Source: Pseudoxanthomonas sangjuensis (GTDB lineage: Bacteria > Pseudomonadota > Gammaproteobacteria > Xanthomonadales > Xanthomonadaceae). From it: a stretch of DNA of 64,000 nt. Each line of letters opens with the position of its first letter. Position 1 is the stretch's first letter. Positions 17,338 to 49,254 of the stretch are shown piece after piece. The notes below the pieces were generated by a model, which saw only the letters and a program-made list of their open reading frames with translations, was not told where the DNA came from and did not search any database. A program made the translations under genes and the position numbers. The stretch lies in the NCBI RefSeq assembly GCF_010211755.1, contig NZ_PDWR01000004.1, positions 1 to 64,000 on the forward strand, given 5' to 3'.

Positions 17338-18528
17338 CCATGGCAAAGGGTAAATTCGAGCGCACCAAGCCCCACGTGAACGTGGGCACGATTGGCCACG
17401 TGGACCACGGCAAGACGACGCTGACGGCGGCGCTGACGAAGGTGGGCGCGGAGCGTTTCGGCGGTGAGTTCAAGGACTACTCGTCGATCGACGCGGCGCC
17501 GGAGGAGAAGGCGCGCGGCATCACGATTTCGACGGCGCACGTCGAATACGAAAGCCCGACCCGCCACTATGCGCACGTGGACTGCCCGGGGCACGCCGAC
17601 TACGTGAAGAACATGATCACGGGTGCGGCGCAGATGGACGGCGCGATCCTGGTGTGCTCGGCCGCGGACGGCCCGATGCCGCAGACCCGCGAGCACATTC
17701 TGCTGGCGCGCCAGGTGGGCGTGCCGTACATCGTGGTCTACCTGAACAAGGCGGACATGGTGGACGACGCCGAGCTGCTGGAGCTGGTGGAGATGGAAGT
17801 GCGCGAGCTTCTGTCCAAGTACGAGTTCCCGGGCGACGACACCCCGATCATCAAGGGTTCGGCGCTGAAGGCGCTGGAAGGCGACCAGTCGGAGATCGGC
17901 GTGCCGTCGATCATTGCGCTGGTGCAGGCGCTGGACGACTACATTCCGACCCCGGAGCGCGACGTTGACAAGCCGTTCCTGATGCCGGTGGAAGACGTGT
18001 TCTCGATCTCGGGCCGCGGCACCGTGGTGACCGGCCGCATCGAGCGCGGCGTGATCAAGGTGGGCGACGAAATCGAGATCGTGGGCATCCGCCCGACCAC
18101 CAAGACCACGGTGACCGGCGTGGAGATGTTCCGCAAGCTGCTGGACCAGGGCCAGGCGGGCGACAACGCGGGCCTGCTGCTGCGCGGCACCAAGCGCGAC
18201 GAAGTGGAGCGCGGCCAGGTGCTGGCCAAGCCGGGCACGATCACCCCGCACACCGAGTTCGAGGCCGAGGTGTACGTGCTGTCGAAGGACGAGGGCGGCC
18301 GTCATACCCCGTTCTTCAAGGGCTACCGTCCGCAGTTCTACTTCCGCACGACCGACATCACCGGTGCGGTGACGCTGCCGGAAGGCGTGGAGATGGTGAT
18401 GCCGGGCGACAACATCAAGATGACCGTGGCGCTGATCAACCCGGTGGCGATGGACGAGGGCCTGCGCTTCGCGATCCGCGAGGGCGGCCGTACGGTCGGC
18501 GCCGGCGTGGTGGCCAAGATCATCAAGT
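17338..18528 (+). repeat. tuf direct repeat, copy B (partner 1-1191)
   Basis: This is the partner of the repeat at 1-1191, in direct orientation about 17.3 kb away. Recombination between the copies could delete or duplicate the essential genes between them, so the pair is presumably maintained by gene conversion. Confidence 0.9.
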
Positions 18529-18530
18529 GA
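17340..18530 (+). CDS. tuf: Elongation factor Tu, copy 2
   Basis: This is the second EF-Tu, identical in protein sequence (396 residues) to the copy at 3-1193 and carrying the same [16 protein letters not shown] and NKAD motifs. It is the last gene of the rpsL-rpsG-fusA-tuf operon. An AGAAGGTAG site precedes the ATG. It ends in TGA and is followed by an 8-bp hairpin (18541-18560). Only the stop codon and flanks distinguish the two genes. Confidence 0.98.
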
Positions 18531-43681: not shown

Positions 43682-45583
43682 ATGGGTTACGAAGCCGAGT
43701 ACCAGCGCTCCGTGGAGCAGCCGGAGGCCTTCTGGGCCGAGCAGGCCAAGGCCATCCATTGGCACAAGCCGCCGCAGAAGATCCTCGACTACTACGACCC
43801 GCCGTTCCGCAAATGGTTCGTCGGCGGGCAGACCAATCTCTGCTACAACGCGGTCGACCGGCACCTGGCCGAGCGTCCCGACCAGTTGGCGCTGGTCGCG
43901 GTCTCCACCGAGACCGATGTCACCCGCGAGATCACCTATCGCGAGCTGTACCGCGAGGTGAACGCCTTCGCCGCGGTGCTGAAGCAGCTTGGCGTCGGTC
44001 GCGGCGACCGCGTCGTCGTCTACATGCCGAACATGGCCGAAGCGGTGTTCGCGGTGCTGGCCTGCGCGCGCATCGGCGCGATCCATTCGGTGGTGTTCGG
44101 CGGTTTCGCCGCGCACAACCTCGCCGTGCGCATCGACGACGCGCAGCCGAAGCTGCTGATCGCCGCCGACGCCGGCAGCCGCGGCGGCAAGGTCGTTCCG
44201 TACAAGCCGCTGGTCGACGAGGCCTGCGCGAAGGCGGCCACGCCGCCGCCGAAGGTGCTGATCGTTTCGCGCGGGCTCGATCCGGCGGAGCCGCGCGTCG
44301 AAGGCCGCGACGTCGACTACGCGACGCTGCGCGCGGAAGTCGGCGACGCCGAAGTGCCGGTCGAGTGGCTGGAATCGAACGAGCCCAGCTACCTGCTCTA
44401 CACCAGCGGCACCACCGGCCGCCCGAAGGGCGTGCAGCGCGATGTCGGAGGCCATGCGGTCGCGCTCGCCCTGTCGATGCGCACCGTGTTCGACGTCGGC
44501 CCGGGCCAGGTGATGTTTTCCACTTCCGACGTCGGCTGGGCGGTCGGACATTCGTACAACATCTACGGCCCGCTGATCGTCGGCGCAACGTCGCTGCTGT
44601 ACGAAGGCCTGCCGGTCAACCCCGACGCCGGCATCTGGTGGGCGCTGTGCGAGAAGTACGGCGTGCGCACCATGTTCTCGTCGCCGACCGCGATCCGCGT
44701 ACTGAAGAAGCACGACGCATCGTTCATCCGCGACCACGACCTGTCGAGGCTCAAGTGGCTGTTCCTCGCCGGCGAGCCGCTGGACGAGCCGACCGCGACC
44801 TGGATCCACGACGCCCTCGGCAAGCCGGTGATCGACAACTACTGGCAGACCGAGACCGGCTGGCCGGTGCTGTGCCTGCTGCCGGGCCTGGACCTGAAGC
44901 CGGTGAAGTTCGGTTCGCCGGGCCTGCCGAACCTCGGCTACAAGCTGCGCGTGATCGACGAGACCACCGGCCTCGAGGCGAAGGCGAACGAGAAGGGCGT
45001 GCTGGTGATCGAGCCGCCGCTGCCGCCGGGCTGCATGACCACGGTGTGGCGCGACGACCAGCGCTTCCTCAGCAGCTACTTCAGCCACTTCAAGGAACTG
45101 CTGTACAGCTCGCTGGACTGGGCGATCCGCGACGAGGACGGCTACACCTTCATCCTCGGCCGCACCGACGACGTGATCAACGTCGCCGGCCACCGCCTGG
45201 GCACGCGCGAGATCGAGGAATCGGTGTCGGGCTTCCCGGCCGTCGCCGAAGCGGCGGTGATCGGCGTCAACGACGAACTGAAAGGCCAGGTACCGGTGGT
45301 GTTCGCCACGTTGCGCCAGGCCACCGACGAGCAGGCCGCGCGCGTGCAGGCCGCCGACGGCATGCGCAAGACCGTCGAGCGGACCCTCGGCGCGGTCGCG
45401 CGCCCCGCGCGGGTGTACATCGTCAATGCATTGCCCAAGACGCGCTCGGGCAAGCTGCTGCGGCGCTCGCTGCAGGCGCTGGCGCAGGGTTCGGATCCGG
45501 GCGATCTCTCCACGCTCGACGATCCGAACGCGCTGGAGGAAGTGAAGCGCGCGCTGCAGCGCGGCCCCGAGGTCGGGAGCTGA
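43682..45583 (+). CDS. prpE: Propionyl-CoA synthetase
   Basis: Activates propionate with ATP and CoA to propionyl-CoA, feeding the methylcitrate cycle. The 633-residue acyl-CoA synthetase has the AMP-binding signature YTSGTTGRPKGVQRDVGGHA, whose QRD-GG form is typical of PrpE. It also has TSDVGWAVGHSYNIYGPL, DNYWQTETGWP and the C-terminal lysine in PKTRSGKLLRR, the site of regulatory acylation in related enzymes. The start ATG follows GGGAGAGGGAA. It is separated from prpBC by the oppositely oriented HTH-citrate synthase gene. Confidence 0.94.
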   Translation: MGYEAEYQRSVEQPEAFWAEQAKAIHWHKPPQKILDYYDPPFRKWFVGGQTNLCYNAVDRHLAERPDQLALVAVSTETDVTREITYRELYREVNAFAAVLKQLGVGRGDRVVVYMPNMAEAVFAVLACARIGAIHSVVFGGFAAHNLAVRIDDAQPKLLIAADAGSRGGKVVPYKPLVDEACAKAATPPPKVLIVSRGLDPAEPRVEGRDVDYATLRAEVGDAEVPVEWLESNEPSYLLYTSGTTGRPKGVQRDVGGHAVALALSMRTVFDVGPGQVMFSTSDVGWAVGHSYNIYGPLIVGATSLLYEGLPVNPDAGIWWALCEKYGVRTMFSSPTAIRVLKKHDASFIRDHDLSRLKWLFLAGEPLDEPTATWIHDALGKPVIDNYWQTETGWPVLCLLPGLDLKPVKFGSPGLPNLGYKLRVIDETTGLEAKANEKGVLVIEPPLPPGCMTTVWRDDQRFLSSYFSHFKELLYSSLDWAIRDEDGYTFILGRTDDVINVAGHRLGTREIEESVSGFPAVAEAAVIGVNDELKGQVPVVFATLRQATDEQAARVQAADGMRKTVERTLGAVARPARVYIVNALPKTRSGKLLRRSLQALAQGSDPGDLSTLDDPNALEEVKRALQRGPEVGS

Positions 45584-45808: not shown

Positions 45809-47035
45809 TCATTCCGCCGGCGCCGCATTCTCCGGGGCGATGCCCGCATAGCTCGCGCGCGGCCGGATCAGCCGTCCCTGCGCCTGTTGTTCCAGCGCAT
45901 GCGCGAGCCATCCCGCGAGGCGTGCGGCCGCGAACATCACCAGCGCCGGCGTGGCGGGCAGGCCGTTGAGGCGGCAGAGCGCCGCGAGCATGAAGTCGAT
46001 GTTCGGCCGCTGCCCGCTGATTTCCTCGGTCGCGGCGATCAGCGCTTCGAGCGCAGCCAGTCCAGGCGTGCCTGCATGCTGCTTGCGCACGTGCGCAAGC
46101 AGCTCGGCCGCGCGCGGGTCGCCATGCGGATACAGCGCATGGCCGAAGCCGGGCAGGTCGTCGCCGCGCTGCCAGCGCGCGGCGATGAAATCGCGCGCGG
46201 TGGCCGCTTCGCGCGCGTCGCCGATCAGCGCGTAGGCGCGCGCGGTGGCGCCGCCGTGGCGCGGGCCGGACAGCGCCGCCAGGCCGCTGCAGACCGTGGC
46301 GTGCAGGTGCGCGCCGGTCGAGGCGACCACGCGCGCGGCGAACGCCGACACGTTGAGCTCGTGGTCGGCGCAGACGATCAGCGCGGCGCGCACCAGCTCG
46401 GCGAAACCTTCGTCGCCCGGCTTCCAGCGCTGCGCGAGCAATCGGTGCACGGGACCGGCGGAGGGCGGCTGCGCGACCAGCAGGGCGGCGTTGTGGCGCA
46501 GCAGGGTCGCGGCGATTTCATTGCGCACGCGCGGCGCCGAGTTGAACGAATGGCGCACGTCCAGCGCCAGCAGCGGGATCGCCGACATCGCGCGCTCCAG
46601 CGGCGGCAGGTCGGCATCGCCGGCGATGGCCGCGACCCGGTCCGGCCATCGTTCGGCGAACGGCACGCCGAAGGGGTCGTGGTCGCCGCAATCCCACAGC
46701 CGGCGCGCCACGCCCTCGAGCGTGGCGCCTTCGCGGACCAGGTCGATGGCGGACCGCCCGCGGTAGTACGGGCCGTCCGGGCGGATCAGCGAGATCCGCG
46801 TTTCCAGCACCGGCAGGCCGCGGTCCAGGCTCTGCGCCGCGCCGCGCGCCGCGCCGCGCCCGGCGCGCTTGCGCTGCGCCAGCCGCTCCACGTCCTGGCG
46901 CGGGTACAGGCGGCTGCGGTGGTCCTTGCCGGGGCGCGATTCCAGCAGGCCGCGGCTGACGTAGGCGTACAGCGTGGCCTGGCTGATGCCGAGGATGCGG
47001 CAGGTTTCGCGGGCGGACAGCAGGTCGGCGGGCAT
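45809..47035 (-). CDS. Helix-turn-helix/citrate synthase fusion, probable regulator of prp genes
   Basis: The 408-residue protein joins a MerR/excisionase-like winged helix (about 5-55: LLSARETCRILGISQATLYA, then VSRGLLES) to a citrate-synthase domain (about 75-400). The enzyme triad is kept: H260 (GPRHGG), H299 (GFGHAL) and D347 (NIDFML), plus R308 (DPR) and R391. These match H230, H269 and D320 of neighbouring PrpC. It could thus bind oxaloacetate, (2-methyl)citrate or acyl-CoA and either catalyse or sense. The start ATG at 47035 places it divergent from prpB across a region rich in TTGATC sites. A GntR- or Fis-type PrpR is absent. A purely enzymatic role remains possible. Confidence 0.85.
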   Translation of the reverse strand: MPADLLSARETCRILGISQATLYAYVSRGLLESRPGKDHRSRLYPRQDVERLAQRKRAGRGAARGAAQSLDRGLPVLETRISLIRPDGPYYRGRSAIDLVREGATLEGVARRLWDCGDHDPFGVPFAERWPDRVAAIAGDADLPPLERAMSAIPLLALDVRHSFNSAPRVRNEIAATLLRHNAALLVAQPPSAGPVHRLLAQRWKPGDEGFAELVRAALIVCADHELNVSAFAARVVASTGAHLHATVCSGLAALSGPRHGGATARAYALIGDAREAATARDFIAARWQRGDDLPGFGHALYPHGDPRAAELLAHVRKQHAGTPGLAALEALIAATEEISGQRPNIDFMLAALCRLNGLPATPALVMFAAARLAGWLAHALEQQAQGRLIRPRASYAGIAPENAAPAE

Positions 47036-47044
47036 GTGGATAGA

Positions 47045-47071
47045 TTGATTTATCCGATCAAGATTGATCAA
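47045..47071 (+). promoter_or_regulatory. Candidate operator cluster between the HTH-citrate synthase gene and prpB
   Basis: Half-sites TTGAT (47045), ATCAA (47057), TTGAT (47064) and ATCAA (47067) form overlapping palindromes: TTGAT-N7-ATCAA, GATCAA-GA-TTGATC (47056-47069) and TTGATCAA (47064-47071). The stretch is AT-rich against its surroundings and starts 10 bp before the divergent ATG. It shares TTGATCGGA with the prpE palindrome. It is positioned to control both divergent genes. Confidence 0.65.
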
Positions 47072-47176
47072 CCTTCGGGATAGTGCCAGATTTGCGCCCG
47101 GCGAGAGCATGCCAATCGCGCACCGCTCCCGCCCGTCCGGCGTATCGTGCCGCCGACCAGCAAGGAGCCTCCCCGC

Positions 47177-48079
47177 ATGACCCACGCATCCGCCGGCGCC
47201 CCCGCAACTCCGGGAGCGAAGTTCCGTGCCGCGCTCGCCGCCGAGAAACCGCTGCAGGTGATCGGCGCGATCAACGCAAACCACGCGCTGCTGGCCCAGC
47301 GCGCCGGCTTCCGCGCGATCTACCTGTCCGGCGGCGGTGTCGCCGCGGGTTCGCTCGGCATTCCCGACCTGGGCATCACCGGGCTGGAGGACGTGCTGGT
47401 CGACACGCGTCGCATCACCGACGTCTGCGACCTGCCGCTGCTGGTCGACATCGACACCGGCTTCGGGCCCAGCGCGTTCAACATCGAACGCACGGTGAAG
47501 TCGCTGATCAAGGCCGGCGCGGCCGGTTGCCACATCGAGGACCAGGTCGGCGCCAAGCGCTGCGGCCACCGGCCCGGCAAGGAAATCGTCGCCCTCGCGG
47601 AGATGGTCGACCGCATCAAGGCCGCGGCCGACGCGAAGACCGATCCCGACTTCTTCCTGATCGCGCGCACCGACGCGATCCAGTCCGAAGGCGTCGACCT
47701 GGCGATCGAGCGCGCGGTGCGCTGCGTCGAGGCCGGTGCCGACGGCATCTTCGCCGAGGCCTCGTACGACCTGGAGACCTACCGCAGGTTCGTCGACGCG
47801 GTGAAGGTGCCGGTGCTGGCCAACATCACCGAGTTCGGCGCGACCCCGCTGTTCAGCCGCGACGAACTCGCGTCGGTCGGCGTCGCGATCCAGCTTTACC
47901 CGCTGTCGGCGTTCCGCGCGGCGAACAGGGCCGCCGAAGCCGTCTACACCGCGATCCGCCGCGACGGCCACCAGAAGAACGTCGTCGATCTGATGCAGAC
48001 CCGCGAGGAACTGTACGACCGCATCGGCTACCACGCCTTCGAACAGAAGCTCGACGCGCTGTTCGCGGCGAAGAAATGA
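47177..48079 (+). CDS. prpB: 2-Methylisocitrate lyase
   Basis: Cleaves 2-methylisocitrate to succinate and pyruvate, the last step of the methylcitrate cycle. The start ATG at 47177 is 9 nt after AAGGAG; the 300-residue product begins [20 protein letters not shown]. The ICL/PEPM fold shows [18 protein letters not shown], the Mg2+ site DIDTGFG and the catalytic loop [12 protein letters not shown]. prpC follows after 23 nt. The gene is divergent from the HTH-citrate synthase gene and probably regulated through the operators at 47045-47071. Confidence 0.96.
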
Positions 48080-48102: not shown

Positions 48103-49254
48103 ATGAGCGAAGCCACCACCACCGCCTTCAAGCCGAAGAAGTCCGTCGCCCTCAGCGGCACCGCCGCCGGCAACACCGCGCTGTGCACGGTCGGCCGCAC
48201 CGGCAACGACCTGCATTACCGCGGCTACGACATCCTCGACCTGGCCACCACCAGCGAGTTCGAGGAAATCGCCCACCTGCTGGTGCACGGCAAGCTGCCC
48301 AACAAGGCCGAGCTGCGCGCCTACAAGGCCAAGCTGAAGTCGCTGCGCGGCATCCCGGCGGCGGTCAAGGCCGCGCTGGAGGAACTGCCGCCGTCGGCGC
48401 ACCCGATGGACGTGATGCGCACCGGCGTGTCGGTGCTGGGCTGCGTGTCGCCGGAGAAGGACGACCACAACCACCCGGGCGCGCGCGACATCGCCGACAA
48501 GCTGATGGCGTCGCTGGGTTCGATGCTGCTGTACTGGTACCACTGGAGCCACAACGGCCGCGCCATCGACGTGGAGACCGACGACGACTCCATCGGCGGC
48601 CACTTCCTGCACCTGCTGCACGGCGAGACGCCGCCGGAGAGCTGGGTGCGCGCGATGCACACCTCGCTGATCCTGTACGCGGAGCACGAGTTCAACGCCT
48701 CCACCTTCACCTGCCGCGTCATCGCCGGCACCGGCAGCGACATGTACAGCTGCATCGCCGGTGGCATCGGCGCGCTGCGCGGGCCGAAGCATGGCGGCGC
48801 CAACGAGGTCGCGTTCGAGGTGCAGAAGCGCTACGAGACCCCGGACGAGGCCGAGGCCGACATCAAGGCCCGCGTCGAGCGCAAGGAAGTGGTGATCGGT
48901 TTCGGCCACCCGGTGTACACGGTGTCCGACCCGCGCAACAAGGTGATCAAGCAGGTCGCGAAGGAGCTGTCGGAAGAGCAGGGCAACATGAAGATGTACG
49001 ACATCGCCGAGCGCCTGGAATCGGTGATGTGGGACATCAAGAAGATGTTCCCCAACCTGGACTGGTTCAGCGCGGTCAGCTACCACATGATGGGCGTGCC
49101 GACGGCCATGTTCACCCCGCTGTTCGTCATCGCCCGCACCAGCGGCTGGAGCGCACACGTGATCGAGCAGCGCATCGACGGCAAGATCATCCGCCCCAGC
49201 GCGAATTACACCGGGCCGGAAGACCTGGCATTCGTCCCGCTGGATCGGCGCTGA
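48103..49254 (+). CDS. prpC: 2-Methylcitrate synthase
   Basis: Condenses propionyl-CoA with oxaloacetate to 2-methylcitrate. The 383-residue citrate-synthase-family protein has H230 (GPKHGGAN), H269 (GFGHPVY) and D320 (NLDWFSA), and the short, hexamerisation-free architecture of PrpC. The start ATG at 48103 is 6 nt after GTGGAG; an alternative 9 codons upstream (MIPRQVEN) overlaps the prpB stop. It is the second gene of prpBC. No prpD or acnD follows. Confidence 0.95.

Follow-up and report, generated by a model that had tools for sequence, protein, structure and literature searches.

A helix-turn-helix–citrate synthase fusion as a predicted regulator of the methylcitrate pathway in Pseudoxanthomonas sangjuensis, and a candidate regulator family in Pseudomonadota

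Organisation of the methylcitrate locus and of the fusion protein

The window, a stretch of 64,000 nucleotides from the 3.29-Mb genome of P. sangjuensis (76 contigs), contains typA (minus strand), a peptidyl-prolyl isomerase gene, mdh, and prpE (plus strand), followed by a minus-strand gene encoding a helix-turn-helix (HTH) domain fused to a citrate synthase domain, and by prpB and prpC on the plus strand (Table 1). Genes were called on the basis of codon usage, and typA, the isomerase gene, and mdh were named by reading their translations. The products of prpB, prpC, and prpE all scored above the cut-offs of their NCBIfam models. As the original prediction had stated, the fusion gene is divergent from prpB. 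The genome has three citrate synthase genes, namely the fusion gene, prpC, and a distant one, and since the canonical prpC is directly beside prpB, the fusion protein is not the pathway's only synthase. A search of 61 related genomes, P. sangjuensis included, found no protein with a PrpR_N domain (the E. coli control was positive), which agrees with the proposed absence of a PrpR-type regulator. Elsewhere in the window, a ribosomal gene cluster carries two 396-aa EF-Tu-like copies (positions 3–1193 and 17340–18530) whose first 60 residues are identical, an ordinary arrangement.

Table 1. Features of the prp locus (positions in the window)
Feature	Position	Strand	Remarks
prpE, propionate-CoA ligase	43682..45583	+	Convergent with the fusion gene; TIGR02316
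HTH-citrate synthase fusion gene, proposed regulator	45809..47035	-	408 aa; ATG at 47033-47035
Citrate synthase domain, residues 72-393	45857..46822	-	With H225, H260, H299, R308, D347, R372, R391
DNA-binding domain, HTH_17/MerR_1-like, residues 5-56	46868..47023	-	Pfam
Putative operator TTGATT-N6-ATCAA-GA-TTGATCAA	47045..47071		Arms TTGAT, ATCAA, TTGAT; 9 bp 5' of the fusion start codon
Predicted -35 box of prpBC, TTGATC	47064..47069	+	Overlaps the last operator arm
Predicted extended -10 box of prpBC, TGC-CAGATT	47087..47092	+	Spacer to the -35 box, 17 bp
prpB, methylisocitrate lyase, predicted first target	47177..48079	+	Start is the ATG behind AAGGAG; TIGR02317
prpC, canonical 2-methylcitrate synthase, predicted target	48103..49254	+	PRK12351

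The fusion protein joins a DNA-binding domain and a ligand-binding-type domain that both exceed their Pfam cut-offs, as expected from the claim of an HTH N-terminus followed by a full citrate synthase domain. HTH_17 matched residues 5–56 with 39.7 bits (cut-off 27), and MerR_1 was also above its cut-off (26.7 bits; cut-off 21.6), while MerR (PF00376) was below (18.7 bits; cut-off 28.2). Citrate_synt matched residues 72–393 over profile positions 3–357 of 357 (215.7 bits, E 1.3e-63). None of the NCBIfam citrate synthase models listed for the protein exceeded its cut-off, the best being PRK12350 with 166.2 bits against a cut-off of 332, and PrpR_N was not among the Pfam families listed for it. 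In the family alignment, the HTH positions rank with the most conserved of the whole protein, and T21, Y23, A24, R28, Y44, and L52 are invariant among the 50 members aligned. A PADLOC match to mads_1 (residues 3–52) spanned the HTH alone and is not taken to indicate a role in defence.

The AlphaFold2 monomer model, built from 44 family sequences, had a mean pLDDT of 90.7 and a pTM of 0.84, with a weak interdomain stretch at residues ca. 60–80. Residues 64–393 superposed on the 2-methylcitrate synthase PrpC of P. aeruginosa (6s6f) with a Z-score of 33.8 and an rmsd of 2.7 over 321 residues, and Foldseek returned TM-scores of 0.62–0.69 by query length. H260, H299, and D347, which we take to be the catalytic residues of citrate synthases and which had been claimed to be kept, are matched by identical residues in the PrpC encoded by the window, as are R308, R372, and R391. 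These six residues together with H225 and N228 are invariant in all 76 distinct full-length prp-linked orthologues (104 loci entered and 99 matched before duplicates and partial matches were removed). The complete conservation of the pocket across the prp branch points to a substrate or product of methylcitrate synthesis as the probable signal. We would guess 2-methylcitrate first, and oxaloacetate with propionyl-CoA second.

The putative operator and its co-occurrence with the fusion gene

A near-invariant putative operator, TTGATT-N6-ATCAAGATTGATCAA, is located between the fusion gene and prpB, at the site that had been named as the likely binding region. The same pattern was present between the fusion gene and its divergent target in 35 of 35 loci, one of which has acnD-prpF as the target in place of prpB; the first arm is one base off in three loci (L007, L021, and L026). 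The distance from TTGATCAA to TGnCAxATT was 12 bp at all 112 matched sites, in a count whose pattern allowed 9–15 bp, whose locus sets overlap, and which leaves out sites without such a -10 box, as in L041, where no CAGATT-like -10 box is found at the usual distance. MerR-family operators lie inside a stretched -35/-10 spacer of 19–20 bp; the spacer predicted for prpBC is 17 bp, and the operator covers the -35 box and the bases upstream of it instead of lying inside a stretched spacer. When the window was searched for the 15-bp core with up to three mismatches, the sole site was that at 47057 and none was near prpE. Thus prpE, which the original prediction had counted among the controlled genes, is not an evident target.

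Among the 61 related genomes, the fusion gene was found in 33 of the 37 members of the genus, in two genomes of other families of the order (G037 and G047), and in G053, where it lies in two frames and is apparently broken. At this last locus (L052; G053:C2, 116773–117932), the operator core is intact next to the seemingly split gene, which adjoins a further citrate synthase gene interrupted by a stop codon. The fusion gene is divergent from prpB in 33 of 33 loci of the genus. Its divergent target is prpB-prpC-acnD in G037 and acnD-prpF in G047, whose prpB-prpC pair is on another contig. Four congeners without the fusion gene (G005, G024, G032, and G034) retain prpB-prpC, and no operator was found around their prpB even at three mismatches.

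All 36 genomes that have the fusion gene contained the exact 15-bp core, and none of the other 25 did (whole-genome search, up to one mismatch); the genomes are related, and these counts are not independent events. A reversed-pattern control matched once across the 61 genomes. Ten of the 25 genomes that lack the fusion gene had one-mismatch cores, and at two of these places, which were inspected, the rest of the operator was missing. In all, the one-mismatch places inspected were those in G018, G014, G009:C21, G043:C40, and G038, and none of them had the rest of the operator.

Second copies of the operator were found before unlinked acnD genes in P. sangjuensis and eight congeners (six exact, three with one mismatch). 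They lie ca. 85–130 bp 5' of acnD, which is followed by prpF either directly or after one intervening gene. The copy of P. sangjuensis is at contig positions 81512–81538, beyond the window, and the AcnD (TIGR02333) and PrpF (TIGR02334) of this genome exceed their NCBIfam cut-offs. In the 33 genomes of the genus that have the fusion gene, acnD directly follows prpC in 10, where one operator could serve both prpBC and acnD; it is unlinked and preceded by the operator in 9, and unlinked without it in 14. Six acnD genes from genomes lacking the fusion gene, used as controls, had no operator, the best match being five mismatches from the core. The 14 operator-less acnD genes (L145–L158) share a different palindromic element upstream (TTGATG/TTGACG...GTCAAC-like; TTGATGGTCTCCGTCAAC-like, or TTGACGAAGACCGTCAAC), which is perhaps the site of another regulator.

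A scan of a collection of 84,980 species for the operator plus the -10 box yielded 66 sites. Each of them precedes prpB or acnD, and 64 adjoin a fusion gene, with prpB on the other side in 59 and acnD in 5; the remaining 2 stand before acnD alone. Judging from record titles, all 66 come from Lysobacterales, where we place Tahibacter and Dokdonella; the scan is silent on other targets since its pattern required the -10 box of Lysobacterales.

Related fusions across Pseudomonadota

Full-length fusions were found in 48 of 398 evenly drawn Pseudomonadota genomes (49 copies, ca. one genome in eight), a count that may miss diverged fusions because the best four candidates at most were scored per genome at an E-value limit of 1e-30. 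In a plasmid collection, 261 records matched the fusion protein and 89 covered at least 80% of it; the annotations among the matches listed were citrate synthase family protein, citrate synthase, and citrate/2-methylcitrate synthase. Among 58 family loci, a divergent gene resembling stand-alone citrate synthases was called in 26, several of these being partial calls, and the divergent gene of L031 is annotated as such too; the one partner that was scanned, in L104, is a PRK12350 synthase. Another 8 loci face prpB or acnD, and the remainder face other genes or none that was called, though some of these have a second citrate synthase nearby. Other neighbours include genes for D-2-hydroxyacid dehydrogenases, transporters, CoA-transferase, and cation efflux.

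The pattern TCAANNTTGA was present within -200 to +20 of the fusion start in 51 of the 58 loci and at 1 of 422 other gene starts there, a count that leaves out those within 450 bp of the fusion start (Fisher 7e-60, a value that, like the one below, is descriptive only because the genomes are related). A profile of the 51 sites revealed a 5' arm at fixed spacing (TTGA 1.00, next T 0.98). In the seven loci lacking the strict core, one base was changed in two (L124 and L138) and none was recognisable in five. Over the 398 genomes, the strict pattern TTGATN7ATCAANATTGA matched 51 times in 49 genomes, and the reversed control 3 times. Of these 51 matches, 40 are at fusion starts, 1 is before acnD in P. 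sangjuensis, 1 is in G381, and 9 are within open reading frames (ORFs) of at least 213 aa, taken as candidates by length. The match in G381:C3 is ca. 60 bp before a dehydrogenase-like ORF, which shares 35% identity with the gene next to a related fusion; a fusion gene is 3 kb away, and the opposite strand has a 244-aa ORF that also spans the site. Counted by genome, 40 of the 48 that carry the fusion have the strict operator, against 9 of the 350 that lack it (Fisher p 4e-38, again descriptive), and in each of these nine the site lies inside an ORF of at least 213 aa. The strict pattern was missing from eight genomes that carry the fusion (G439, G207, G317, G313, G446, G114, G444, and G179); four of them (G439, G317, G313, and G446) contain close variants. 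Homologues without linkage to prp genes had been expected to speak against a regulatory role. The distant homologues examined are indeed unlinked, yet most share the operator geometry and many adjoin another citrate synthase, so that the idea of a regulator is widened rather than refuted.

The catalytic and pocket residues are mostly kept in the 58-row family alignment, in which the row of the window's fusion bore a spurious tail (H260 in 55 rows, H299 in 54, D347 in 55, R308 in 58, R372 in 57, and R391 in 58). All three catalytic positions are changed in L142 and L144 and two in L143, with the HTH and the three pocket arginines intact, and H299 is changed in L116 and L117. Synthase activity thus looks dispensable in some fusions. 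The operator core was absent from L142, L143, and L144. L142 and L143 have another upstream palindrome in common (GTTTAC/GTAAAC-like); L143 is divergent from MipA, citrate transporter, 2-hydroxyacid dehydrogenase, and LeuC/LeuD-like genes, and L144 from a cation efflux gene. In a sub-branch comprising L034, L035, L036, L124, L138, and L141, N228 is replaced by T, and in L035 and L036 H225 is also replaced by Q. L034, L124, and L138 each have a divergent neighbour of 317 aa, identified as a 2-hydroxyacid dehydrogenase in the two loci where it was annotated or scanned (L034 and L138), which hints at a different ligand in these fusions.

In a midpoint-rooted tree of 69 rows, from which nine near-copies had been removed beforehand, the fusions lie on one side of a branch and PrpC together with the stand-alone partner synthases on the other (100/100), and the prp-linked fusions form one clade (100/100). 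The identity to the window's proteins was 93% for PrpC vs 74% for the fusion in L099, and 91% vs 68% in L041; regulators are commonly less conserved than the enzymes they accompany. On balance, it appears probable that these proteins, annotated as citrate synthases, constitute a large unrecognised family of Pseudomonadota transcription factors whose sensor would be a complete synthase, perhaps still competent in catalysis. Such factors would largely use one operator, TTGATT-N6-ATCAA-NA-TTGA, and would often regulate a neighbouring pathway of the citrate synthase type or of organic acids, with the state of the active site (oxaloacetate, acyl-CoA, or product) setting DNA binding.

Predicted regulation of the pathway and alternative explanations

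Based on these comparisons, a regulatory role of the fusion protein is strongly supported at the level of sequence. The original prediction that an enzyme fold here provides the sensor for a transcription factor controlling its own pathway held up in the comparative tests, the operator being found before prpB and, in 9 of the 23 genomes of the genus with an unlinked acnD, before that gene as well. We hypothesise that the fusion is likely a one-component transcription factor that represses both the methylcitrate pathway and its own gene and senses pathway ligands through its citrate synthase pocket, as described below. The N-terminal HTH would bind the operator, and the citrate synthase domain would be the sensor, presumably dimerising as citrate synthases do. 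The operator-bound fusion would block the -35 box of prpB and its own start region, so that prpBC and the fusion gene itself are repressed, and in P. sangjuensis it would likewise repress acnD-prpF via the second operator copy. When propionyl-CoA enters metabolism, a ligand in the pocket (2-methylcitrate, or oxaloacetate with propionyl-CoA) would close the domain, and the closed fusion would release the DNA, turning the methylcitrate pathway on. Citrate synthases close their domains upon ligand binding, which would offer a natural switch. Repression with autorepression is the simplest reading since the operator lies over a predicted -35 box of normal spacing and next to the fusion's own start codon; both the promoter boxes and the sign of control are deduced from sequence spacing. 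Counting against the model are the 14 congeners that have the fusion and an unlinked acnD without an operator, the one-mismatch cores in genomes that lack the gene, and the family loci without the strict core; counting against a pure regulator is the conservation of catalytic residues that such a protein would not need.

The latter fact raises the possibility of a bifunctional trigger enzyme, that is, an active citrate or methylcitrate synthase that also binds the operator and whose turnover or substrate occupancy, and not product alone, gates DNA binding. The invariance of the catalytic and oxaloacetate-site residues in 76 of 76 orthologues, their general retention in the wider family, and the close match of the fold to PrpC would fit such a protein. 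However, a dedicated prpC adjoins prpB, five family members (L142, L143, L144, L116, and L117) have changed catalytic residues, and the sampled tree separates the fusions from both PrpC and the partner synthases that stand alone. We regard this possibility as unlikely. It is similarly unlikely that the fusion is an activator that binds over the -35 box and the DNA 5' of it. Many activators bind upstream of the -35 box, as two of the three operator arms do here, and the HTH is MerR-like, but the spacing between the -35 box and the extended -10 box is normal at the 112 matched sites, unlike the long spacer of MerR targets, and the operator lies near the fusion's own start, as in autorepression. 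That the fusion is an ordinary enzyme whose HTH is a relic, with another, unlinked transcription factor acting at the conserved site, is very improbable and was rejected: the citrate synthase names among the annotated plasmid matches listed and the retained catalytic residues would suit it, but the operator goes with the fusion gene rather than with prpC, being absent in congeners that keep prpBC without the fusion, the same operator stands beside fusion genes in other neighbourhoods, the HTH residues are among the best conserved of the protein, and the co-occurrence of gene and motif does not favour an unlinked regulator.

The repressor proposed here would belong to a known kind of protein. 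In BirA, MocR/GabR, ROK, and PutA, an enzyme-derived domain combined with an HTH or other DNA-binding domain acts as a metabolite sensor, and the fusion likewise joins an enzyme-derived domain to a DNA-binding domain; to our knowledge, none of these factors uses the citrate synthase fold. Among the papers listed in searches of the open-licence literature, none described an HTH-citrate synthase regulator or a transcription factor family with the citrate synthase fold, and those that contained a stretch of the operator letters looked unrelated by their titles. A comparative-genomics study of propionate regulation in J Bacteriol in 2012 reportedly proposed new regulators, and it is possible that the regulator of the prp branch was predicted there.

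The fusion has the whole domain, the active-site residues, and the fold in common with PrpC and citrate synthases (PF00285; PDB 6s6f and 3hwk), and differs from them in its N-terminal HTH, linker, and own operator and in scoring below every NCBIfam synthase cut-off listed. The sigma-54-dependent PrpR, defined by PrpR_N, regulates prp genes, is often divergent from them, and has 2-methylcitrate as its signal. Like PrpR, the fusion is divergent from and predicted to regulate prp genes, but its sensor fold and HTH are different, and no PrpR_N was found in P. sangjuensis or the 60 relatives sampled. The sensor domain of mycobacterial PrpR is also unrelated to one of the citrate synthase type. Mycobacterial PrpR is reported to activate prpC and prpD (PMC6765138); the fusion would share with it the role of a transcription factor for methylcitrate genes and would differ in acting as a repressor.

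A citrate synthase with a regulatory role has been described in Caulobacter, where, according to an eLife paper of 2020, CitA controls the cell cycle (PMC7083601). CitA thus resembles the proposed fusion in having a regulatory role, although it acts on the cell cycle. The same paper mentions two further paralogues, citB and citC, with consecutive locus tags, and reports that CitC fails to complement E. coli gltA; the term helix-turn-helix is absent from its text (PMC7083601). The arrangement of citB and citC resembles that of the fusion-plus-partner loci. If CitC were such a fusion, its failure to complement would be an experimental hint that these proteins are not housekeeping synthases.

If the proposed regulation is true, the methylcitrate regulator of many Lysobacterales would be identified together with its operator and targets, and the predicted operator makes tests of binding and ligands direct. 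If confirmed, the citrate synthase annotations of these proteins would be wrong or incomplete, flux models that count fusion genes as enzymes would need correction, and citrate synthase would become a further enzyme fold turned into a sensor. Taken together, the comparison of sequences suggests a widespread, overlooked family of regulators that may sense metabolites through an enzyme active site.
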